Source of the DNA: Archangium sp.
GTDB taxonomy: Bacteria > Myxococcota > Myxococcia > Myxococcales > Myxococcaceae
Reading direction: 5' to 3'
NCBI GenBank assembly: GCA_016793585.1
Contig: JAEUJR010000909.1
Coordinates: 1 to 6,652, forward strand
Length of the DNA: 6,652 nucleotides
Of the stretch, positions 1-6,652 are shown piece by piece (within the stretch, counting starts at the first letter, position 1; each line of letters begins with the position of its first letter). A program made the position numbers and the translations under genes. The notes under the pieces were generated by a model. That model saw only the letters and a program-made list of their open reading frames with translations, was not told the origin of the DNA and did no database searches.

Positions 1-80
1 TCCAGCGACAACGGCATGGGCGGCGCCTTACCAGATGGGTCGGGCCGCCACGCGAACAGACTGGCCTGTCGGTGGGCCTT

Positions 81-100
81 GTCTGCGGAGCTCCGCTGAC
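81..100. repeat. 20-base near-perfect palindrome, possible operator
   Basis: GTCTGCGGAGCTCCGCTGAC is an inverted repeat in which nine of ten base pairs match, the exception being T84/T97. The central 12 bases (85-96) are a perfect palindrome. There is no loop, so it is a poor RNA hairpin but a plausible site for a dimeric repressor or activator. It ends 26 bases before the ATG at 127, where an operator could act on the dioxygenase gene. Its function is inference from symmetry and position only; palindromes of this quality arise by chance now and then in GC-rich DNA. Confidence 0.4.
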
Positions 101-117
101 GAGGATATGAGCCGTCT

Positions 118-121
118 GGAG
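118..121 (+). promoter_or_regulatory. Ribosome binding site for the long dioxygenase start
   Basis: GGAG lies five bases before the ATG at 127. It supports translation of the long form with the signal-like N-terminus. Confidence 0.5.
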
Positions 122-126
122 AAGCC

Positions 127-1068
127 ATGGCTGAAGACCCGAAGAAGACCCTGACCCGACGTGAGACGACCGTCGCCGTGGCCGGCCTGGCTGCGGCAGC
201 GACCGTCGGTGGCCTCGTCGCCGCGACCCCGAAGCCCTCGCAGGAGAAGACGCCGATGAGCTCCAACCCGAATCGCATGCCGATGGCCTTCGTCCCGCAC
301 GGTGGAGGCCCGTGGCCGTTCGTCGATCTCGGCCTCGGCCCGAAGGATCAAGAGAACCGGCTGCGCGACTACCTCGTCGGGCTCGGCGCGATTCCGAAGA
401 CGAAGCCGAAGGCGCTGCTCGTCATCTCGGCGCACTGGGAAGAAGCGGTTCCCACGGTGATGACGAACCCGAAGCCGCCGATGCTCTACGACTACTACGG
501 CTTTCCCCCCGAGTCGTACCAGGTGCAGTGGCCCGCTCCCGGAGACCCGGCGCTCGCGAAGCGGGTCCGTGCACTGCTCGAGGGCGCGGGTATTCCCTCC
601 GCAGAAGACTCCGCGCGCGGATTCGATCACGGCACCTTCGTGCCCTTCAAGCTCGCCTTCCCCAACGCCGACGTGCCGACGGTGCAGCTCTCGCTCAAGG
701 CGGGCCTCGACCCGAAGGAGCACCTCGCCATCGGCCGTGCGCTCGCGCCGTTGCGTGACGAAGGCGTGTTCATTCTCGGCAGCGGCATGACCTTTCACAA
801 CCTGCGCGCGTTCTTCCAGGGCGGTGGCGGCCCGGTGTCTGAAGCGTTCGACGCGTGGCTGCAAGAGACGATGAAGGCTCCGCCTGAGCAGCGCGATGCG
901 CGGCTGATGGAGTGGAAGAAGGCTCCCGGTGCCCGCGCCGCCCACCCGCGTGAAGAGCACCTCGTGCCGTTGATGGTCATCGCCGGCGCGGCCGGAGCCG
1001 ACCCCGTGTCGATTCCCTATGCCGACCTCTACGTCGACGTGAAGCTCTCGGCGTACCACTACGCCTGA
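127..1068 (+). CDS. LigB/DODA-type extradiol ring-cleavage dioxygenase with Tat-like N-terminus
   Basis: This 313-residue protein belongs to the class III (LigB/DODA, E. coli YgiD-like) extradiol dioxygenases. These are metal enzymes that open catechol-type rings beside the hydroxyl pair; the family includes 4,5-DOPA dioxygenase. Visible family motifs are PHGGGPWPF (H58), SAHWE (H103), GFDHGTF (H168), SGMTFHN (H224) and HPREEHL (H273, H278). Their order and spacing match YgiD, and H58 and H103 are the likely metal ligands. Residues 1-43 are extra compared with the usual 260-270 residue family: a charged start, TRRET (R11-R12), then an Ala/Gly/Val-rich stretch to about residue 33. This resembles a twin-arginine signal, though the motif lacks the usual hydrophobic residue after RR. 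An internal ATG at 256 with its own ribosome site would give a 270-residue form starting MSSNPNRMP. The substrate cannot be told from sequence. The gene appears to be transcribed alone; no terminator is evident in the 76 bases before the sigma gene. Confidence 0.9.
   Translation: MAEDPKKTLTRRETTVAVAGLAAAATVGGLVAATPKPSQEKTPMSSNPNRMPMAFVPHGGGPWPFVDLGLGPKDQENRLRDYLVGLGAIPKTKPKALLVISAHWEEAVPTVMTNPKPPMLYDYYGFPPESYQVQWPAPGDPALAKRVRALLEGAGIPSAEDSARGFDHGTFVPFKLAFPNADVPTVQLSLKAGLDPKEHLAIGRALAPLRDEGVFILGSGMTFHNLRAFFQGGGGPVSEAFDAWLQETMKAPPEQRDARLMEWKKAPGARAAHPREEHLVPLMVIAGAAGADPVSIPYADLYVDVKLSAYHYA
242..246 (+). promoter_or_regulatory. Internal ribosome binding site for a short dioxygenase form
   Basis: AGGAG sits nine bases before the in-frame ATG at 256. 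That ATG gives a protein of normal family length, so either this is the true start or both starts are used. The AGGAG may also simply be part of the Gln-Glu-Lys codons. Confidence 0.4.
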
Positions 1069-1144
1069 CGCCAACCGCTCGGGACTGCTGGTGAAACCCG
1101 CTCGCTGTTAACGCAGGCCGCTCTCAAGCATCCTTCCGGTCAGC
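1069..1144. other. Spacer before the sigma-CpaB-VWA operon
   Basis: Seventy-six non-coding bases separate the dioxygenase stop from the sigma-factor start, so the operon promoter should lie here or inside the upstream gene. The heptamer CCGCTCG occurs twice. I see no strong stem-loop with a T-run, no clear sigma-70 pair and no convincing ECF-type -35 (GGAAC-like) element. An in-frame TAA at 1109-1111 bounds how far upstream the sigma gene can start. Confidence 0.4.
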
Positions 1145-1723
1145 GTGTCAGCGGTCGTCCAGAGGGAGTCGTCTGCTCCGGTCTCGAGCCGGCAGAAACC
1201 CGTCTGGTTGCCGTGGGTGGCGGGCGCGCGGCGAAACGAGCGTGAGGCGTTTGGCAAGCTACACCAGCACTTCGCGCGGCTGGTACACGCCGTCATCATC
1301 ACGAAGGTGCCCGCGGCCGACGCGTCTGACCTCACGCAGGACGTGTTTTTGCTGATGCTCTCGAAGTTGCCGACGCTGGAGGACGATCAGGCGTTTCCCG
1401 CGTGGCTGCTCGAGATCGCCCGCAACCGTGCTTCGAAGTTCTTGAGAGACCGGCCGCGCAGGTCGCCGGCCGAGCTCGACGAAGAGCCGCACGCGCCCGA
1501 TCGGTCTGGCTGGCCCGACGCGAAGAAGGTGCTCCTGGCGCTCCAGACGCTGCCCGAGACGTACGCCGAGACGCTCGCCATGCGCCTCATCGAAGGTCTG
1601 AACGGCCCCGACATCGCCGAGCGCACGGGCCTGACTCCGGGCTCGGTGCGCGTGAACCTGCATCGCGGCATGGCGATGCTGCGCGAAAAGCTCGGCCTCT
1701 CACCGAAGGAGGGCGACGAATGA
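1145..1723 (+). CDS. ECF-type RNA polymerase sigma factor
   Basis: This 192-residue protein has the two domains of an extracytoplasmic-function sigma factor. Region 2, about residues 35-104, contains the typical ADASDLTQDVFLLML segment, followed by AFPAWLLEIARNRASKFLR, which recognises and melts the -10. Region 4, about 128-185, contains ALQTLPETYAETLAMRLIEG and a helix-turn-helix (about 153-178: PDIAERTGLTPGSVRVNLHRG) that binds the -35. There is no region 3, as expected for this class. The chosen start is GTG at 1145, the first after the in-frame TAA at 1109. It has no clear ribosome site, and a later GTG at 1217 would remove 24 poorly conserved residues, so the start is uncertain. The stop codon overlaps the ATG of the CpaB-like gene. 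ECF factors are usually held inactive by a co-transcribed anti-sigma factor, and the next gene occupies that position. Confidence 0.92.
   Translation: MSAVVQRESSAPVSSRQKPVWLPWVAGARRNEREAFGKLHQHFARLVHAVIITKVPAADASDLTQDVFLLMLSKLPTLEDDQAFPAWLLEIARNRASKFLRDRPRRSPAELDEEPHAPDRSGWPDAKKVLLALQTLPETYAETLAMRLIEGLNGPDIAERTGLTPGSVRVNLHRGMAMLREKLGLSPKEGDE
1707..1712 (+). promoter_or_regulatory. Strong ribosome binding site fixing the CpaB-like start
   Basis: AGGAGG lies seven bases before ATG 1720 and inside the last codons of the sigma gene. With the ATGA overlap, it fixes the start and suggests translational coupling of the two proteins. Confidence 0.8.
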
Positions 1724-2727
1724 GTGACCCGCTCTTCGATGGCCCCGGAAACGATCCCGAGCTCGACGCGCTCGAGCACGAGCTGGCTGGCTATCGCTTC
1801 GATTCCTCACCTCCCGACCTGCCGGCGAAGCGCTCGTCGGAGCCGAAGCCCGCGCGCCGTGAAGCGCCGTTGCCCGACGTCATGCGCTCGAGCGGCGCCA
1901 CGTTCTCGCTGCGCGGCAAGGCGCCGCTGTTCGTCTCGCTGGCGCTCGCGCTCGTCGCGGGCGTCGTCTCGTACTCAGCGGTGAAGAAGAAGGAGATGGA
2001 CGTTCGCAAGGGCTGGAACCTGGTGCCCGTCGTCGTTGCCGCCACCGACGTCTCCGAAGGCACCGTCGTCACCATGGAGATGATCAGCCAGCGCTCGATT
2101 CCCGAGCAGTTCGTCACGTCGTCGGTCGTGAAGCCCGACTCGGCCTCGTACATCGTGAACCAGAAGGTGCTGGTGCCGATTCAGGCCGGTGACCCGCTGC
2201 TGTGGAGCCAGTTCGAGACCACGAAGGCCGCCGAGCGCCTGTCGACGAAGGTGCAGAAGAAGGCGCGCGCCGTCACCATCGAGACGAAGGGCGCGCAGTC
2301 GGTCGGCGGCTGGGTGCGGCCGAACGATCACGTCGATCTCATCGGCACGTTCAAGGACCCCGCGACGGGAGAGCAGGTGGCCGTGACGCTCATGCAGAAC
2401 GTCATCGTGCTCGCGACGGGGAAGATCACCGGCACCACCAACGTGAACCTCGTGCCCGAGGGCCAGCGCGACTACGCGAACGTATCGCTGCTGCTGCTGC
2501 CCGAAGAGGCCGAGATGGCGGTGCTCGCGCAAGAGCTCGGCGCGTTGACGCTCACCCTGCGAAACGAAGAAGACCTCGACGTGCTCGAAGAGCGCGGGCG
2601 CGCCACCATCAACACGCTGCTCTCGGGTGAGCGCACGAAGGTGCTCCAGTCGAAGCGCTTCAACACCATTCAGGTGATCAAGGGCTCATCGTCGAGCGAC
2701 ACGAAGACGGCGGCGCCTGGCGAGTAG
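1720..2727 (+). CDS. CpaB/RcpC-like SAF-domain membrane protein with cytoplasmic N-terminal extension
   Basis: This 335-residue protein resembles CpaB/RcpC, the periplasmic subunit of Flp/Tad pilus machines that supports the outer-membrane secretin. A hydrophobic segment at about 68-88 (APLFVSLALALVAGVVSYSA) is followed by a SAF-type domain at about 100-165 (LVPVVVAATDVSEGTVVTM; VLVPIQAGDPLLWSQF). An RcpC-type region follows at about 180-290 (ARAVTIETKG, GGWVRPNDHVDLIGTF, VSLLLLPEEAEMAVLAQELG). CpaB proteins usually begin directly with the membrane helix. Here about 65 residues come first: an acidic DPELDALEHELAGYRF segment, then a Pro/Lys/Arg-rich linker. That region would face the cytoplasm and has no zinc-binding His-Cys motif. 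The start overlaps the sigma stop as ATGA. No other Flp/Tad genes are in view. The CpaB relationship is well supported; an anti-sigma role for the extension is inference from position. It could instead be a CpaB of a dispersed Tad system whose gene simply happens to follow a sigma gene. Confidence 0.85.
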   Translation: MSDPLFDGPGNDPELDALEHELAGYRFDSSPPDLPAKRSSEPKPARREAPLPDVMRSSGATFSLRGKAPLFVSLALALVAGVVSYSAVKKKEMDVRKGWNLVPVVVAATDVSEGTVVTMEMISQRSIPEQFVTSSVVKPDSASYIVNQKVLVPIQAGDPLLWSQFETTKAAERLSTKVQKKARAVTIETKGAQSVGGWVRPNDHVDLIGTFKDPATGEQVAVTLMQNVIVLATGKITGTTNVNLVPEGQRDYANVSLLLLPEEAEMAVLAQELGALTLTLRNEEDLDVLEERGRATINTLLSGERTKVLQSKRFNTIQVIKGSSSSDTKTAAPGE

Positions 2728-2739
2728 ACTTCCCGCTTC

Positions 2740-4023
2740 GTGAATCGGCGAACCGCCTGGGGGTTGCTCTTTCTGCTGCTCGCGCTCGCAGGCGGCGTGT
2801 GGCGCTTCGTGCAGCCCGAGCCCGAGGTGGAGCGCTCGCCCGAGCCCACGTCAGGACCGCTCGAACGAACCGTGGTCGATACGCTCGCCGTGGTTCCGTT
2901 GCCATCGCCTGAGGTCGTCGACTCAGGAGCGCTCGAGTCGAACGTTCTCGTCACCGACGCAGGCGCCTCGACGTTCACCACGCAACCGCCGCTGGGCTTC
3001 GACGTCGACGCGTACGTGGCGAAGTGGCGCGCGGCGCTGGCTCCGCTGCTCAACCGCACCGCGCCCACGAAGAGCATCACCACCCGCGAGGCGGACCGTG
3101 GCTCGAGCTTCGCGCCCGCCGTCGATGGTGGCGTCGTCAGGTGTTCGCCGCGCCGGGTCTCGCTCCGGTTCAACGAGAGCGCCCAGGTCGACATCTTCGT
3201 CTTCGTCGACACGTCTGGCTCGATGACCGGAGTGCTGCCCGACGTCGCGCAGTGGCTGGGTGAGCTCGAGTTCGGGCTGCGCGAGGCTCAGCGCGACTTT
3301 CAGCTCGTGGTGGTCGCGAACACCGACTGGCTGCTGCGCACCGAGCGTGTTCGCCTCGACGCCGGCGTCATCAAGCAGCGCATCAACTCCAACGACATCG
3401 TCGAGGTCGTGCTCGCCTCTGGCTCGTCACCGACGGGCTGGCGCTCGTTCGCGCGGCCGGGCGTGCCGACGGAGTTGGTTCTCGTCACCGACGACTCGCC
3501 GTACGGCCACCCGTCGTACGAGGCGCGCTTCGAGGCGTTGATGGGTGATGCGCTCCCGCAGACGCGCGTTCACGTGATGGGTGGCTTCGACGTTGGCTCG
3601 GCCAATCTGCTCGGGCCTGAACAACCGCTCGCGCCGGGCGTCTGCCGGCCCCACGGCGTGGCTCACGGCCTCGAGTACCAGCACCTCTCGATGACCTATC
3701 GAGGGAGCCGGACGAGCCTGTGTCGCCCCGACTCGTGGAGCGCGCTGAAAGACGTGCTGCTGAAGACCCCCGTGCCTCAAGAAGCGCGCTGCGCGTGGCA
3801 GTTCGAGCTGCACCCCGACGCAGTGCTCGAGCCGCCGCTCGCGTTGCCGGCCTCGGGCCTGCCGGTGTCGTTGATTCGCGAGCACACCCTCGCCGACTGC
3901 GGGAGCGGCTTTCGGCGCAGCTACCTCGCTGACGAGCGCAGCATTACCTTGTGCCCGGCCACGTGTGTGGCGCTGCCCGAAGACGGGTTTCGGGGGCTCG
4001 AGTTCTCGTGGTCGTGCCGCTGA
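2740..4023 (+). CDS. Membrane-anchored von Willebrand factor A domain protein
   Basis: This protein has 427 residues. Residues 5-22 form a hydrophobic anchor after MNRR; there is no lipobox Cys and no clear cleavage site, so it is probably held in the inner membrane facing the periplasm. A Pro/Glu/Ser-rich linker (about 25-130) precedes a VWA domain at about 149-345. The metal-binding DxSxS motif is intact in DIFVFVDTSGSM (D157, S159, S161). The supporting elements are GSSPTG (228-233) and the aspartate in LVLVTDDSP (D251). VWA domains bind protein partners through this metal site. The C-terminal part holds seven of the eight cysteines (302, 328, 351, 387, 405, 409, 426), with CAWQFELHPDA and ITLCPATC, probably disulphide-bonded outside the cytoplasm. 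The start is GTG at 2740, 12 bases after the CpaB-like stop and without a clear ribosome site. It is likely co-transcribed with the sigma and CpaB-like genes. The partner is unknown. Confidence 0.85.
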   Translation: MNRRTAWGLLFLLLALAGGVWRFVQPEPEVERSPEPTSGPLERTVVDTLAVVPLPSPEVVDSGALESNVLVTDAGASTFTTQPPLGFDVDAYVAKWRAALAPLLNRTAPTKSITTREADRGSSFAPAVDGGVVRCSPRRVSLRFNESAQVDIFVFVDTSGSMTGVLPDVAQWLGELEFGLREAQRDFQLVVVANTDWLLRTERVRLDAGVIKQRINSNDIVEVVLASGSSPTGWRSFARPGVPTELVLVTDDSPYGHPSYEARFEALMGDALPQTRVHVMGGFDVGSANLLGPEQPLAPGVCRPHGVAHGLEYQHLSMTYRGSRTSLCRPDSWSALKDVLLKTPVPQEARCAWQFELHPDAVLEPPLALPASGLPVSLIREHTLADCGSGFRRSYLADERSITLCPATCVALPEDGFRGLEFSWSCR

Positions 4024-4026
4024 CGG

Positions 4027-4344
4027 TCAGTTCACGTACTTCGGCATCACGAAGTACAGGTCGACGTCGGCTTCGCACTCGACGCAGCGGCCACGCGCGA
4101 CCCGCAGGCCCAGCCGCGGCGTCTCTCCGAGCGACATCACCCGGCCGCCGCAGGTGCAGCGTACGTTGGTGATGGCTTCGTCCATCTGTTTGCCCGACTT
4201 CAGCACGATGGGGTTGTCGGCCGAGAAGCCCGGGGTCGCGGCGCGCTCGGCGTTCGTGCGGCGCGTCTTCACCGCGGCGACGACTTTGCGCGTGCTCCAC
4301 ACGGCGAGCGCGACCAGCAGGGCGAGCAGCAGCAGATCCACCAC
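4027..4344 (-). CDS. Small membrane-anchored zinc-ribbon protein, unknown function
   Basis: This is a 105-residue protein I cannot name. Residues 3-17 (DLLLLALLVALAVWS) form one membrane helix, followed by a basic stretch (RKVVAAVKTRR) that should place the rest in the cytoplasm. The C-terminal half holds four cysteines as CxC (63, 65) and CxxC (87, 90), flanked by GGRVMSLGETPRLGLRVARG and ending LYFVMPKYVN: a zinc-ribbon-like fold. From memory, similar cysteine modules ending in a 'LYF' strand occur in uncharacterised myxobacterial proteins. It lies 34 bases after cheB on the same strand, so it is probably the last gene of the chemosensory operon. The start is GTG at 4344, with another GTG in the next codon; neither has a good ribosome site. 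Its stop is three bases from the stop of the converging VWA gene. Confidence 0.7.
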   Translation of the reverse strand: MVDLLLLALLVALAVWSTRKVVAAVKTRRTNAERAATPGFSADNPIVLKSGKQMDEAITNVRCTCGGRVMSLGETPRLGLRVARGRCVECEADVDLYFVMPKYVN

Positions 4345-4378
4345 GACGTCATCGCGACTTGCCGGCGCTGACGCAAGC

Positions 4379-5434
4379 TCACGCCGCAGGTTTGGCGGAG
4401 CGCCCGTGGAGCGCGAGGGCGAGCGCCCGCGGCCCGATCTTCGAGAGCGGCAACACTTCGCAGGCGGCCCCGCGCTTGAACGCTTCGCCGGGCATGCCCC
4501 ACACCACGCTCGTCTCTCTGTCCTGCACGATGGTCGTCGCGCCCGACTGCTTCACCGTCAGCAGCCCCGCTGCGCCATCGGCGCCCATGCCCGTCAGCAA
4601 CATCGCGACGGCGTTGTGCCCGACGTTCTTCGCGACCGACTCGAAGAGCACGTCGACCGAAGGCCTATGGCGGTTCACGGGCTCGTCGTCACCGATGGCG
4701 CAGAAGTACTTGAGGCCGCTGCGCTCGACGCGCAGGTGTTTGCCGCCGGGCGCGACGTACGCGTGACCCGTCAACAGCGGCGCGCCGTCGTTGGCCTCAC
4801 GCACGACGAGGTTCGTGTTGCGGTCGAGCCGCGCGGCGAAGCGGGCCGAGAACATCTCGGGAATGTGCTGGGCGATGACGATGGCCGGTGCGTCGGGAGG
4901 CATGGTGGCCAGCACGTCGGCGATGGCCTCGGTGCCGCCAGTGGAGGCGCCGATGGCGATGAGCCGATCGGTCGTGTGCAGCGCCTTCACCTTCTCGAAG
5001 TTCGTGCGCGGCGTCTTCTCGGTGCGAGCCGCTACGTTGGCGGTCGCCGCGTTCTTCACCTTCGCGACCAGCTCTCCTGCGAGCGCGTGCAGGCCGGCCG
5101 ACAAGTCGAGCGACGGCTTGGTGACGAAGTCGACGGCGCCCGATTGCAGGGCGGCCATCGTCGCGTCGGCGCCCGAGGCGGTGAGCGACGACACCATCAC
5201 CACCGGCATCGGCCGCAGCCGCATCAGGTTGTTCAAGAACGTCAGCCCGTCCATGCGCGGCATCTCGACGTCGAGCGTGAGCACGTCGGGGTCGAGCTTC
5301 TTGATGAGCTCTCGCGCCTCGAAGGGGTCGCGCGCCGTGCCGACCACCTCGATGGCCGGGTCTTGCGAGAGCACCTCGGTCAGCAGCTTTCGCACGAAGC
5401 CGCTGTCGTCGACGATGAGCACCCGACAAGTCAC
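4379..5434 (-). CDS. cheB: Chemotaxis protein-glutamate methylesterase/glutaminase CheB
   Basis: CheB removes methyl groups from (and deamidates) receptor glutamates, undoing CheR during chemosensory adaptation. This one has 351 residues, close to E. coli's 349. The N-terminal receiver domain (about 3-120) has the acidic pair D9-D10, phospho-acceptor D55 in [13 protein letters not shown]82-S83 and K106 in VTKPS. A linker of about 35 residues leads to the catalytic domain (about 156-345) with GASTGG (S164), AQH (H190) and TGMGADG (D286). These are the same numbers as the E. coli Ser-His-Asp triad, so it should be active and controlled by phosphorylation from a CheA kinase not in this window. 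The start is GTG at 5434, overlapping the cheR stop by four bases (GTGA) with GGAGG six bases upstream. The frame is open much further upstream, but that part merely shadows cheR. Confidence 0.97.
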
Positions 5435-6261
5435 GAGAGGCCTCCGTCGGTCACCCGCTGGAACGCCGTCTTCCCGATGGAGGTGAGCTGGGTCTGGCTG
5501 CCGAGCACCGCTTCGCTGTGGCCCAGCATCAACACGCCCCCGGGCTTGAGCTGACTGGCCAGGCGCCGCACCGTCTTCACGCGGTTCTCGGGTGAGAAGT
5601 AGATGAGCACGTTGCGGCAGAAGATGACGTCGAAGAGCCCCTTCATCGGCCAGGCGCCCAGCAGGTTGAGCTGCCCGAAGAAGACCTTGCTGCGCAGCTC
5701 GTTGCGAACGCGCAGGTACTCGCGGCTGCGGTCGGGGGTGAAGCTGCTGGCCTGCAGCTCGGGCGCGACCGCCTTCACCTGGTCGACGGGGTACACGCCC
5801 TCTTTGGCCCGCGCGAGAATGTCGGCGTCGATGTCGGTGGCCAGTACCTTCCACGTCGGGGGCGCGTTGGGGGCGCCCCGCAGCGTCATGGCGATCGACC
5901 ACGGCTCCTGGCCCGACGAGCACGCCGACGACCACACCGTGAAGGGCTCGTTCTTCTTCGCCCGGCCGGCGAGGCCCTCGAGCAGCTGAAAATGGTGCCG
6001 CTCTCGGAAGAAGTCGGTGACGTTGGTGGTCAGGGCATTGACGAACTGCCCGCTCTCGCCTTCGTCGCGCTCCACGAGGTCGAGGTAGGGGTCGAAGGCC
6101 ACGAAGCCCAGAGCCTTCACCCGCCGCATCAACCGCGCCACGACGAGCGATTGCCGGTTGTCGGCCAGCTCGATGCCGGCCTTCGAGCGGAGCAACCCTC
6201 GCACGCGCTCGAAGGCAGGCTTGTCGATGTCGAGCTGCGGGTCAGAACTGTTCCCAGACAT
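5431..6261 (-). CDS. cheR: Chemotaxis protein-glutamate O-methyltransferase CheR
   Basis: CheR transfers a methyl group from S-adenosylmethionine to glutamates on chemoreceptors. This 276-residue protein is near the usual length (E. coli 286). An N-terminal helical domain (about 12-75) precedes the methyltransferase fold. Visible signatures are [10 protein letters not shown] (78-87), [16 protein letters not shown] (110-125, the SAM-binding loop, more often 'AGCSTGEEPYS'), ATDID (141-145), LRVRNEL (183-189), [13 protein letters not shown] (210-222) and [13 protein letters not shown] (238-250). The loop before LRVRNEL seems about two residues shorter than the glycine-bearing loop of E. coli CheR. 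ATG 6261 lies inside the 3' end of the receptor gene, with GGGGAG nine bases upstream. The gene overlaps the receptor by 20 bases and cheB by four, so the three are probably translated together. Confidence 0.97.
5441..5445 (-). promoter_or_regulatory. cheB: Ribosome binding site that decides the cheB start
   Basis: On the minus strand GGAGG lies six bases before the GTG at 5434. It selects this GTG from a long open frame and sits inside the last codons of cheR, consistent with coupled translation. Confidence 0.8.
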
Positions 6262-6652
6262 TCGGGTCGTCTCCCCGGGGTTGGCTGGGTGGCGCGGCCG
6301 CCGGCTTGCGCGATGGCGCCGGCGCTGACGCTTCGGTGTCTGCGGCGGGCTTCTTGCGGCTCGGCTGCTGGGCCTTCTCGACCTCGAACGCCGGCTCGAA
6401 CACCCTTCGCGGGCTCGCGTCGGTGGCCACCTTGAAGAAGGCGAACGTCTCGAGCACCGACTTGGCCTGCGAGCTCAAGGAGTCGGCTGCCGTCGCCGCC
6501 TCTTCGACCAACGCCGCGTTCTGCTGCGTCATCTTGTCCATCGAGGTGACGGCCTGGTTGATCTGCCCGATGCCCGACGCCTGCTCGTCAGACGCGGTGC
6601 TGATCTCGCCGATGATGTCGCTCACCTTCTTCACGGCCAGCACGATGTCCTT
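6242..6652 (-). CDS. Methyl-accepting chemotaxis protein, C-terminal part (cut by window edge)
   Basis: The gene enters from the right edge. The last 136 residues are visible; the sensor, HAMP domain and receptor tip are outside the window. The visible part is the returning helix of the coiled-coil signalling bundle: VKKVSDIIGEISTASDEQASGIGQINQAV, then MDKMTQQNAALVEEAATAAD, closely resembling E. coli-type receptors. AALVEEAATA fits the methylation-site pattern, with the E-E pair encoded at about 6500-6505. After about visible residue 75 comes a flexible Pro/Ala/Lys-rich linker of about 55 residues, then the final residues NVWEQF. This end resembles the NWETF tail that tethers CheR and CheB to major E. 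coli receptors. The next gene, cheR, starts inside its last codons. Whether the receptor spans the membrane cannot be seen. Confidence 0.95.
   Translation of the reverse strand, partial: KDIVLAVKKVSDIIGEISTASDEQASGIGQINQAVTSMDKMTQQNAALVEEAATAADSLSSQAKSVLETFAFFKVATDASPRRVFEPAFEVEKAQQPSRKKPAADTEASAPAPSRKPAAAPPSQPRGDDPNVWEQF

Follow-up and report, generated by a model that had tools for sequence, protein, structure and literature searches.

An extracytoplasmic function sigma factor and a CpaB-like pilus-ring protein as its probable membrane anti-sigma factor in Archangium sp.

Dedicated sensor domains form the basis of most membrane anti-sigma factors. In a stretch of 6,652 nucleotides from Archangium sp. 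(contig JAEUJR010000909.1, positions 1 to 6,652 of the forward strand; hereafter the window), a gene for an extracytoplasmic function (ECF) sigma factor is coupled to one for a membrane protein of the CpaB/RcpC family. The second product is probably the membrane anti-sigma factor of the first, and the circuit would regulate itself and supply CpaB subunits as well. The described relatives of the CpaB-like protein belong to pilus machines of the Tad and Kil type. In P. aeruginosa, RcpC forms a periplasmic dodecamer, a ring that binds the secretin (PMC12307814), and prey lysis by M. xanthus needs kilB, a gene for a CpaB homolog (PMC8460266). An earlier note on this DNA, made from the sequence alone, knew of no described CpaB-type anti-sigma factor; the literature searched, judged from listings and some passages of openly available papers, likewise yielded no published CpaB/RcpC anti-sigma factor, and one paper that came up deals with an unrelated CpaB.

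The product of the upstream gene is an ECF sigma factor, a short protein with the sigma2 and sigma4 regions only; its Pfam matches (Sigma70_r2, 39.1 bits; Sigma70_r4_2, 46.8 bits) are above their cut-offs, as is its match to TIGR02937 (63.2 bits, cut-off 42.9). The downstream product is a CpaB/RcpC-family protein that has SAF and RcpC domains and scores 161.8 bits against TIGR03177 pilus_cpaB (cut-off 71). Its ATG (1720-1722) shares bases with the TGA stop of the sigma gene (1721-1723) in an ATGA overlap behind a strong ribosome binding site (Table 1), an arrangement the earlier note had read correctly. The extension of about 65 residues that it had placed before the membrane helix measures 67 residues. 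The helix starts at residue 68 in a structural model, and the sequence itself shows a clear hydrophobic run. Drawn by analogy with the RcpC article (PMC12307814), the topology would comprise a cytoplasmic N-terminus, one membrane helix and a periplasmic domain, a layout that fits a membrane anti-sigma factor. Neither zf-HC2 nor any other anti-sigma family is among the Pfam matches of this protein up to E 1, and the FecR domain PF04773 is also missing from them. From knowledge of the family, we take its SAF and RcpC domains to be periplasmic. The extension carries a motif with the family consensus MSDYLWDKxGxDPxVExLExSLSGLxYDxxPPxLP, which reads MSDPLFDGPGNDPELDALEHELAGYRFDSSPPDLP in the window protein.

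Presence of this extension goes with an adjacent sigma gene. A scan of public genomes yielded 75 related loci (designated by L numbers), which together with the window hold 85 CpaB-like frames. All 14 motif-bearing frames have an ECF gene directly upstream, as against 0 of the 62 motif-less frames for which 700 nt or more of upstream sequence could be seen (Fisher p 1.5e-15, which overstates the number of independent events because the loci are related). Nine of the 85 frames were left out of the comparison, being truncated or having too little sequence upstream, and a fusion in L069, described below, was counted among the 71 motif-less frames, its motif lying below the threshold of that count. 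The search for other ECF-CpaB pairs that the earlier note had proposed thus finds the extension tracking the sigma gene, and its reading of an anti-sigma architecture gains support from these counts and from a similar motif on FecR-type partners of ECF sigma factors. Database relatives of the window protein numbered 1153, and 120 of them were listed. Extension and motif occur together in 55 of the 120; with the window included, the motif is present in 56 of 56 long forms and in 0 of 65 short forms, although the motif profile was built in part from the same listed relatives in which this split was counted. The earlier claim that CpaB proteins normally lack such an extension holds for these short forms. 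That the short proteins might be mis-annotated long ones was ruled out, the motif being missing in the frames upstream. A plasmid collection contained distant CpaB proteins only, at 24-38% identity.

The pair persists in all 14 loci while the neighbouring genes differ, which argues that the pairing exceeds chance. A LigB-type dioxygenase gene lies upstream in the window and in L002-L005; a divergent upstream gene, presumably for a SurA-like protein, is common to L013, L029, L034, L038 and L050; an additional CpaB gene follows the pair in L029, L034, L050 and L059; and L023 has other neighbours. Ten gene lists were inspected by eye (the window, L001, L002, L003, L013, L023, L029, L034, L050 and L059). 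A separate anti-sigma gene, which the earlier note had named as a refuting case, was not seen beside the pair in these lists, which were read without a domain scan. The 13 named carrier loci all come from metagenome-assembled genomes (MAGs) labelled Myxococcales, Myxococcaceae, Archangiaceae, Archangium or Myxococcus. The carriers are related to predatory myxobacteria but uncultured. Some of these loci have further features. L029 (5617-6156), L034 (5614-6153), L050 (2163-2702) and L038 (4539-5180) each have a further ECF gene, different from that of the pair, upstream on the minus strand; in L034 and L050 this gene has a partner-like gene of its own. The motif is doubled in tandem before the membrane helix in L029, L034 and L050 and in the database proteins P0110 and P0119, as if two sigma factors or a stronger grip were needed. 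A Myxococcus-like CpaB locus, L048 (BNCN01000007.1), is labelled Comamonas sp. KCTC 72670, which probably reflects mislabelling or contamination.

Similar motifs are also found outside the split pairs. Profiles were run on 195 Myxococcota genomes (G numbers), with up to 39 candidates scored per genome, and remote copies may be missed. With a narrow profile, 14 genomes gave matches at E 1e-3 or better, every one of which has a sigma-CpaB pair; in G114 the contig end falls inside the CpaB gene of the pair. Two weaker matches of this profile (E 2e-4 and 4e-4) are the FecR-domain proteins of L098 and L097, whose gene start overlaps the end of an ECF gene by 4 nt, as in the window pair. A FecR domain was found in L126 and L127, both with a similar N-terminal motif, and eight database proteins with a similar N-terminal module are all FecR proteins. 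At E 0.014 stands a single open reading frame that runs from a sigma-like domain through the motif, a long linker and a membrane helix to SAF/RcpC; the second such fusion, L069, came from the CpaB scan. A widened profile, consisting of the narrow one plus two FecR-type proteins and two fusions and hence circular for those four, gave 28 matches with E of at most 1.3e-6, the next one standing at 0.003. The 28 are 17 motif copies in 14 pairs (three of them tandem), 2 FecR-type proteins and 9 fusions, seven of which were outside the building set of the profile. Matches at E 0.003 or higher were taken as chance; L128, rejected among these, is a long repeat protein that by eye is unlike CpaB or FecR.

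The fusions are not assembly errors, because the sigma and motif part of one of them is matched by 61 database proteins, of which 59 are 674-789 residues long and have RcpC; the motif fits the pattern in 56 of the 61, was recognised by eye in 4 more and is missing from 1. Seven of the nine fusion genomes contain the split pair as well (hypergeometric p 6e-8, a value to be read with shared ancestry in mind). When fused and split proteins are aligned, the motif starts right after sigma4, at the point where the split CpaB protein starts. Signatures of region 2.2 (DL.QDVF) and region 4.2 (SVR...), picked by eye from the alignment and slightly stricter for region 4.2 in the database set, are present in all 14 split sigma factors, including that of the window, and in none of the 61 database proteins or the 9 genome fusions. 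Given the roles that we presume for the two signatures, their loss means that a sigma factor tied permanently to the module no longer resembles a working one, and the fusion family is possibly a sigma mimic. Its members (L069/L118, L117 and L119-L125; P0131-P0191), 674-789 residues in length, have a long low-complexity linker, and a small conserved gene (MADIIDLSL..ESRK...) adjoins the fusion in 8 of 9 loci. Where databases name the sigma-linked CpaB or fusion proteins, the name is pilus assembly protein CpaB, which the proposed function would correct.

As a natural stand-in for the complex of sigma factor and extension that the earlier note proposed to predict, the sigma and motif part of one fusion was modelled with AlphaFold2 (predicted local distance difference test score, pLDDT, 91; predicted TM-score, pTM, 0.86) as a single compact unit in which the motif is well ordered and forms two helices. 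The sigma factor of this model is nearer to CnrH in the CnrH-CnrY complex than to polymerase-bound sigma, so the motif is predicted to dock on the degenerate sigma of the fusion in an inhibited-like arrangement.

A promoter-like element accompanies the pair. Upstream of all 15 sigma genes compared is GTTAAC, followed after 18-19 bases by TCCT (ACCT in L023). The element was first seen by eye and later located by pattern, and block identity is therefore partly built in; between loci the two blocks are 95% and 75% identical, as against 33% for the start of the spacer and 38% for the flank, and close kinship alone would thus not account for their preservation. The exact pattern has 44 matches in the 14 carrier genomes. 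Thirteen lie before sigma genes, 12 before orphan short CpaB genes (one each in 12 of the 14 carriers), 3 before the gene for a 988-residue CarboxypepD-reg protein (three genomes), and 1 each before two tandem SAF/RcpC proteins in G075, a smaller, lipoprotein-like CarboxypepD-reg protein in G005 and a 191-residue protein without Pfam match. Four more are on the other strand of the palindromic GTTAAC before sigma or 988-residue genes, 2 resemble terminator hairpins, 2 are inside the coding sequence of a pilus-cluster ECF gene and 5 were unplaced. The 59 upstream regions of short CpaB genes compared, in carrier and other genomes, contain the pattern 12 times and its reversed form not once; G152 has a one-base variant before its orphan CpaB gene (L018). 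We infer that the element is an autoregulatory ECF-type promoter. The idea that it also drives the fusion or FecR loci was dropped, no site being found there. In L034 (8985-9018), L050 (5653-5686), L175 and L178, the TCCT is a few bases from the ATG of the orphan CpaB gene, which suggests that these mRNAs are leaderless. Two tandem lipoprotein-like SAF/RcpC proteins are encoded behind a sigma-type element in L177 (3110-7001), the second of them with at least 1041 residues, a VIT match and weak TPR matches.

Other CpaB genes of these bacteria lie in pilus clusters. In L006 two T2SSF genes and an FHA gene follow the CpaB gene, and in M. xanthus (L051) a T2SSF gene does; the best segments of the window protein are 75-78% identical to the CpaB copies of these two loci. 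No GTTAAC...TCCT site precedes the CpaB gene of either cluster, and TTGACA/TAGCAT-like sequences were seen by eye before that of L006 and its like. RcpC-domain matches number 3-6 per genome in the 14 carriers as against one in each of seven chosen non-carriers. In L006 (5713-7961) and L041 (5406-7492), a different ECF gene and a cysteine-motif partner, in L006 a zf-HC2 protein (28.5 bits), lie directly upstream of the pilus-cluster CpaB gene, suggesting that the Kil/Tad cluster is under ECF control of its own.

The proposed mechanism begins with duplication of a Tad/Kil CpaB/RcpC alignment-ring protein, which would have gained a two-helix module (YLWDK.G..D..V..LE..L..L) and so become an anti-sigma factor. 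At rest, the module would keep the sigma factor at the inner membrane and off RNA polymerase. A trigger acting on the SAF/RcpC part, which might be the assembly state of a CpaB-type ring or contact with secretin, perhaps followed by cleavage, would set the sigma factor free, and it would then transcribe its own operon and the module-less orphan CpaB gene via GTTAAC - N18-19 - TCCT. Ring assembly is attractive as a candidate signal because RcpC rings bind secretin and KilB is needed for prey lysis. The predicted regulon comprises the sigma operon and the orphan CpaB gene; surface carboxypeptidase-regulatory-like proteins and SAF lipoproteins are weaker candidates for it. A more specific version, which must be called tentative, makes the pair a checkpoint on the pilus ring: the anti-sigma factor would itself be a CpaB ring subunit, ring number or state would set sigma activity, and the fused degenerate sigma-CpaB protein would be a mimic competing for the module. 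Extension-less CpaB made under the sigma factor, or the CpaB of the Kil/Tad cluster, would then co-assemble with the anti-sigma CpaB or displace it, and transcription would report whether a predation machine that spans the envelope has assembled or fired.

The anti-sigma reading draws on sequence for the architecture, the co-occurrence, the sharing of the motif and the promoter-like element, and on a model for docking; binding in the window pair, inhibition, the signal and ring co-assembly are what we infer beyond these. Several results weigh against it. The motif has no match among the Pfam anti-sigma families, and its matches to PDB sequences are weak (best E 0.11) and include no anti-sigma factor. 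The top Foldseek TM-scores for the fusion model are modest (0.49-0.52), sigma factors bound to RseA, MucA, ChrR, RsbN and RskA match it over sigma2 only, and what was modelled is a fusion with a degenerate sigma, not the window pair. The closed arrangement of the sigma might appear even without the motif. AlphaFold2 of the window CpaB-like protein, from 40 close relatives and thus too shallow, reached pLDDT 51.6 (about 70 for a helix at residues 13-23; 87 and 81 for blocks 71-80 and 81-90) and was kept out of claims about fold. The fusions are not significant with a profile that lacks them, one standing at E 0.014 and L069 being unfound. Some non-adjacent ECF gene lies within 4 kb upstream of 29 motif-less CpaB genes; in L006 and L041 it is a different one, with a gene between it and the CpaB gene. 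The 44 exact promoter matches in carriers compare with 33 for the reversed pattern, and 14 non-carrier genomes gave 12 and 135; genome-wide totals, not clearly enriched over the reversed pattern, were dropped as promoter evidence, and the promoter argument therefore rests on position. Finally, inspection by eye of the ten gene lists, the window's included, revealed no Tad platform, secretin or ATPase genes next to the pair, and the link to a pilus machine is indirect.

Three other explanations have been weighed. The CpaB-like protein may bind the sigma factor mainly as a membrane co-activator that needs processing, not as a simple inhibitor; the similar motif on FecR-domain partners is compatible with this, some FecR-type regulators having positive roles, as is generally known, but the fusion model looks like a sigma factor held by an anti-sigma factor, and permanently tied sigmas have lost the region 2.2 and 4.2 signatures (0/61), which leaves the co-activator unlikely. 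The extension might instead be a tail that docks onto a pilus component in the cytoplasm, the sigma factor being an operon mate that controls CpaB expression. Since the promoter-like element also precedes extension-less CpaB paralogs, expression control alone would explain the operon; set against that are the similar motif on FecR proteins beside ECF genes and right behind the sigma-like domain in fusions, and the fact that no pilus platform genes were seen by eye beside the pair in the ten lists, and we give the docking tail little credence. That the linkage is a functionless accident inherited in a small clade accords with the confinement of the 13 named carrier loci to Myxococcales-type MAG labels, yet the pair stays while its neighbours differ between carrier groups, the promoter-like blocks are kept where spacers and flanks have diverged, and the module has FecR and fusion contexts; an accident is very improbable. 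Under the anti-sigma reading, a structural part of a pilus machine has apparently been turned into an anti-sigma factor, with a module also carried by FecR proteins and degenerate-sigma fusions, and the state of an envelope-spanning machine would act on transcription by a testable route.

Table 1. Features of the sigma-CpaB locus in the window
Feature	Position	Strand	Remarks
Putative ECF-type -35/-10 element, GTTAAC - 18 bases - TCCT	1107..1134	+	upstream of sigma gene
ECF sigma factor gene	1145..1723	+	192 aa, GTG start; sigma2 and sigma4 intact
Ribosome binding site AAGGAGG	1706..1712	+	7 nt 5' of CpaB-like ATG; direct reading
CpaB/RcpC-family membrane protein gene, putative anti-sigma factor	1720..2727	+	335 aa
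Putative sigma-binding motif, residues 1-38	1720..1833	+	alignments; similar motif in FecR-type partners and fusions
N-terminal extension, cytoplasmic, residues 1-67	1720..1920	+	missing in short CpaB paralogs
Transmembrane helix and next helix, residues 68-98	1921..2013	+	low-confidence model; hydrophobic run in sequence
SAF domain, residues 103-166	2026..2217	+	Pfam PF08666, 35.5 bits
RcpC domain, residues 173-281	2236..2562	+	Pfam PF16976, 71.4 bits

Domain scans covered five products of the window's genes other than the pair. A plus-strand gene at 2740-4023, starting 13 bases past the CpaB-like stop, encodes a 427-residue product with a VWA-like stretch (DIFVFVDTSGSM); it has no Pfam or NCBIfam match, and a similar protein occurs in L001. 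On the minus strand, 4027-4344 encodes a small membrane protein with a zinc-ribbon-like CxC...CxxC pattern; it is conserved in L001-L003 and recurs close to orphan CpaB genes of L173 and L182.

Among described sigma/anti-sigma pairs, the class II systems CnrH-CnrY and EcfG(RpoE)-NepR have no detectable sequence similarity to the window motif; their sigma-binding parts are two short helices that wrap sigma4 and sigma2, and two motif helices are predicted in the fusion model. The window partner differs from them in its SAF/RcpC periplasmic part, and it lacks the signature of class I or zinc anti-sigma factors (ASDI, zf-HC2). The FecR-type regulators of L097 and L098 have a similar N-terminal module and the ECF overlap, with a periplasmic domain unrelated to that of the window protein. 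According to PMC8999054, ECF48, ECF52, ECF53 and IutY resemble the fusion family in having sigma, regulatory module and membrane helix in one chain; IutY and SCO4117 function as sigma factors, whereas in the fusion family none of 61 proteins keeps the signatures of regions 2.2 and 4.2. Compared with sigma mimicry in PhyR-NepR-EcfG, the five fusions scanned have a membrane CpaB in place of a receiver domain, and partner switching of that style in this family is speculation. With the CpaB/RcpC proteins of Tad systems and KilB of the Kil system, the window protein has SAF, RcpC and TIGR03177 in common; what it adds is a cytoplasmic module of about 60 residues and an ECF sigma factor of its own, and the pair has an ECF-type element and no pilus genes seen alongside. 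On the best reading, what is new here relative to all of these systems is the short two-helix sigma-binding module and the use of a pilus-ring protein as the periplasmic part of an ECF/anti-sigma pair.
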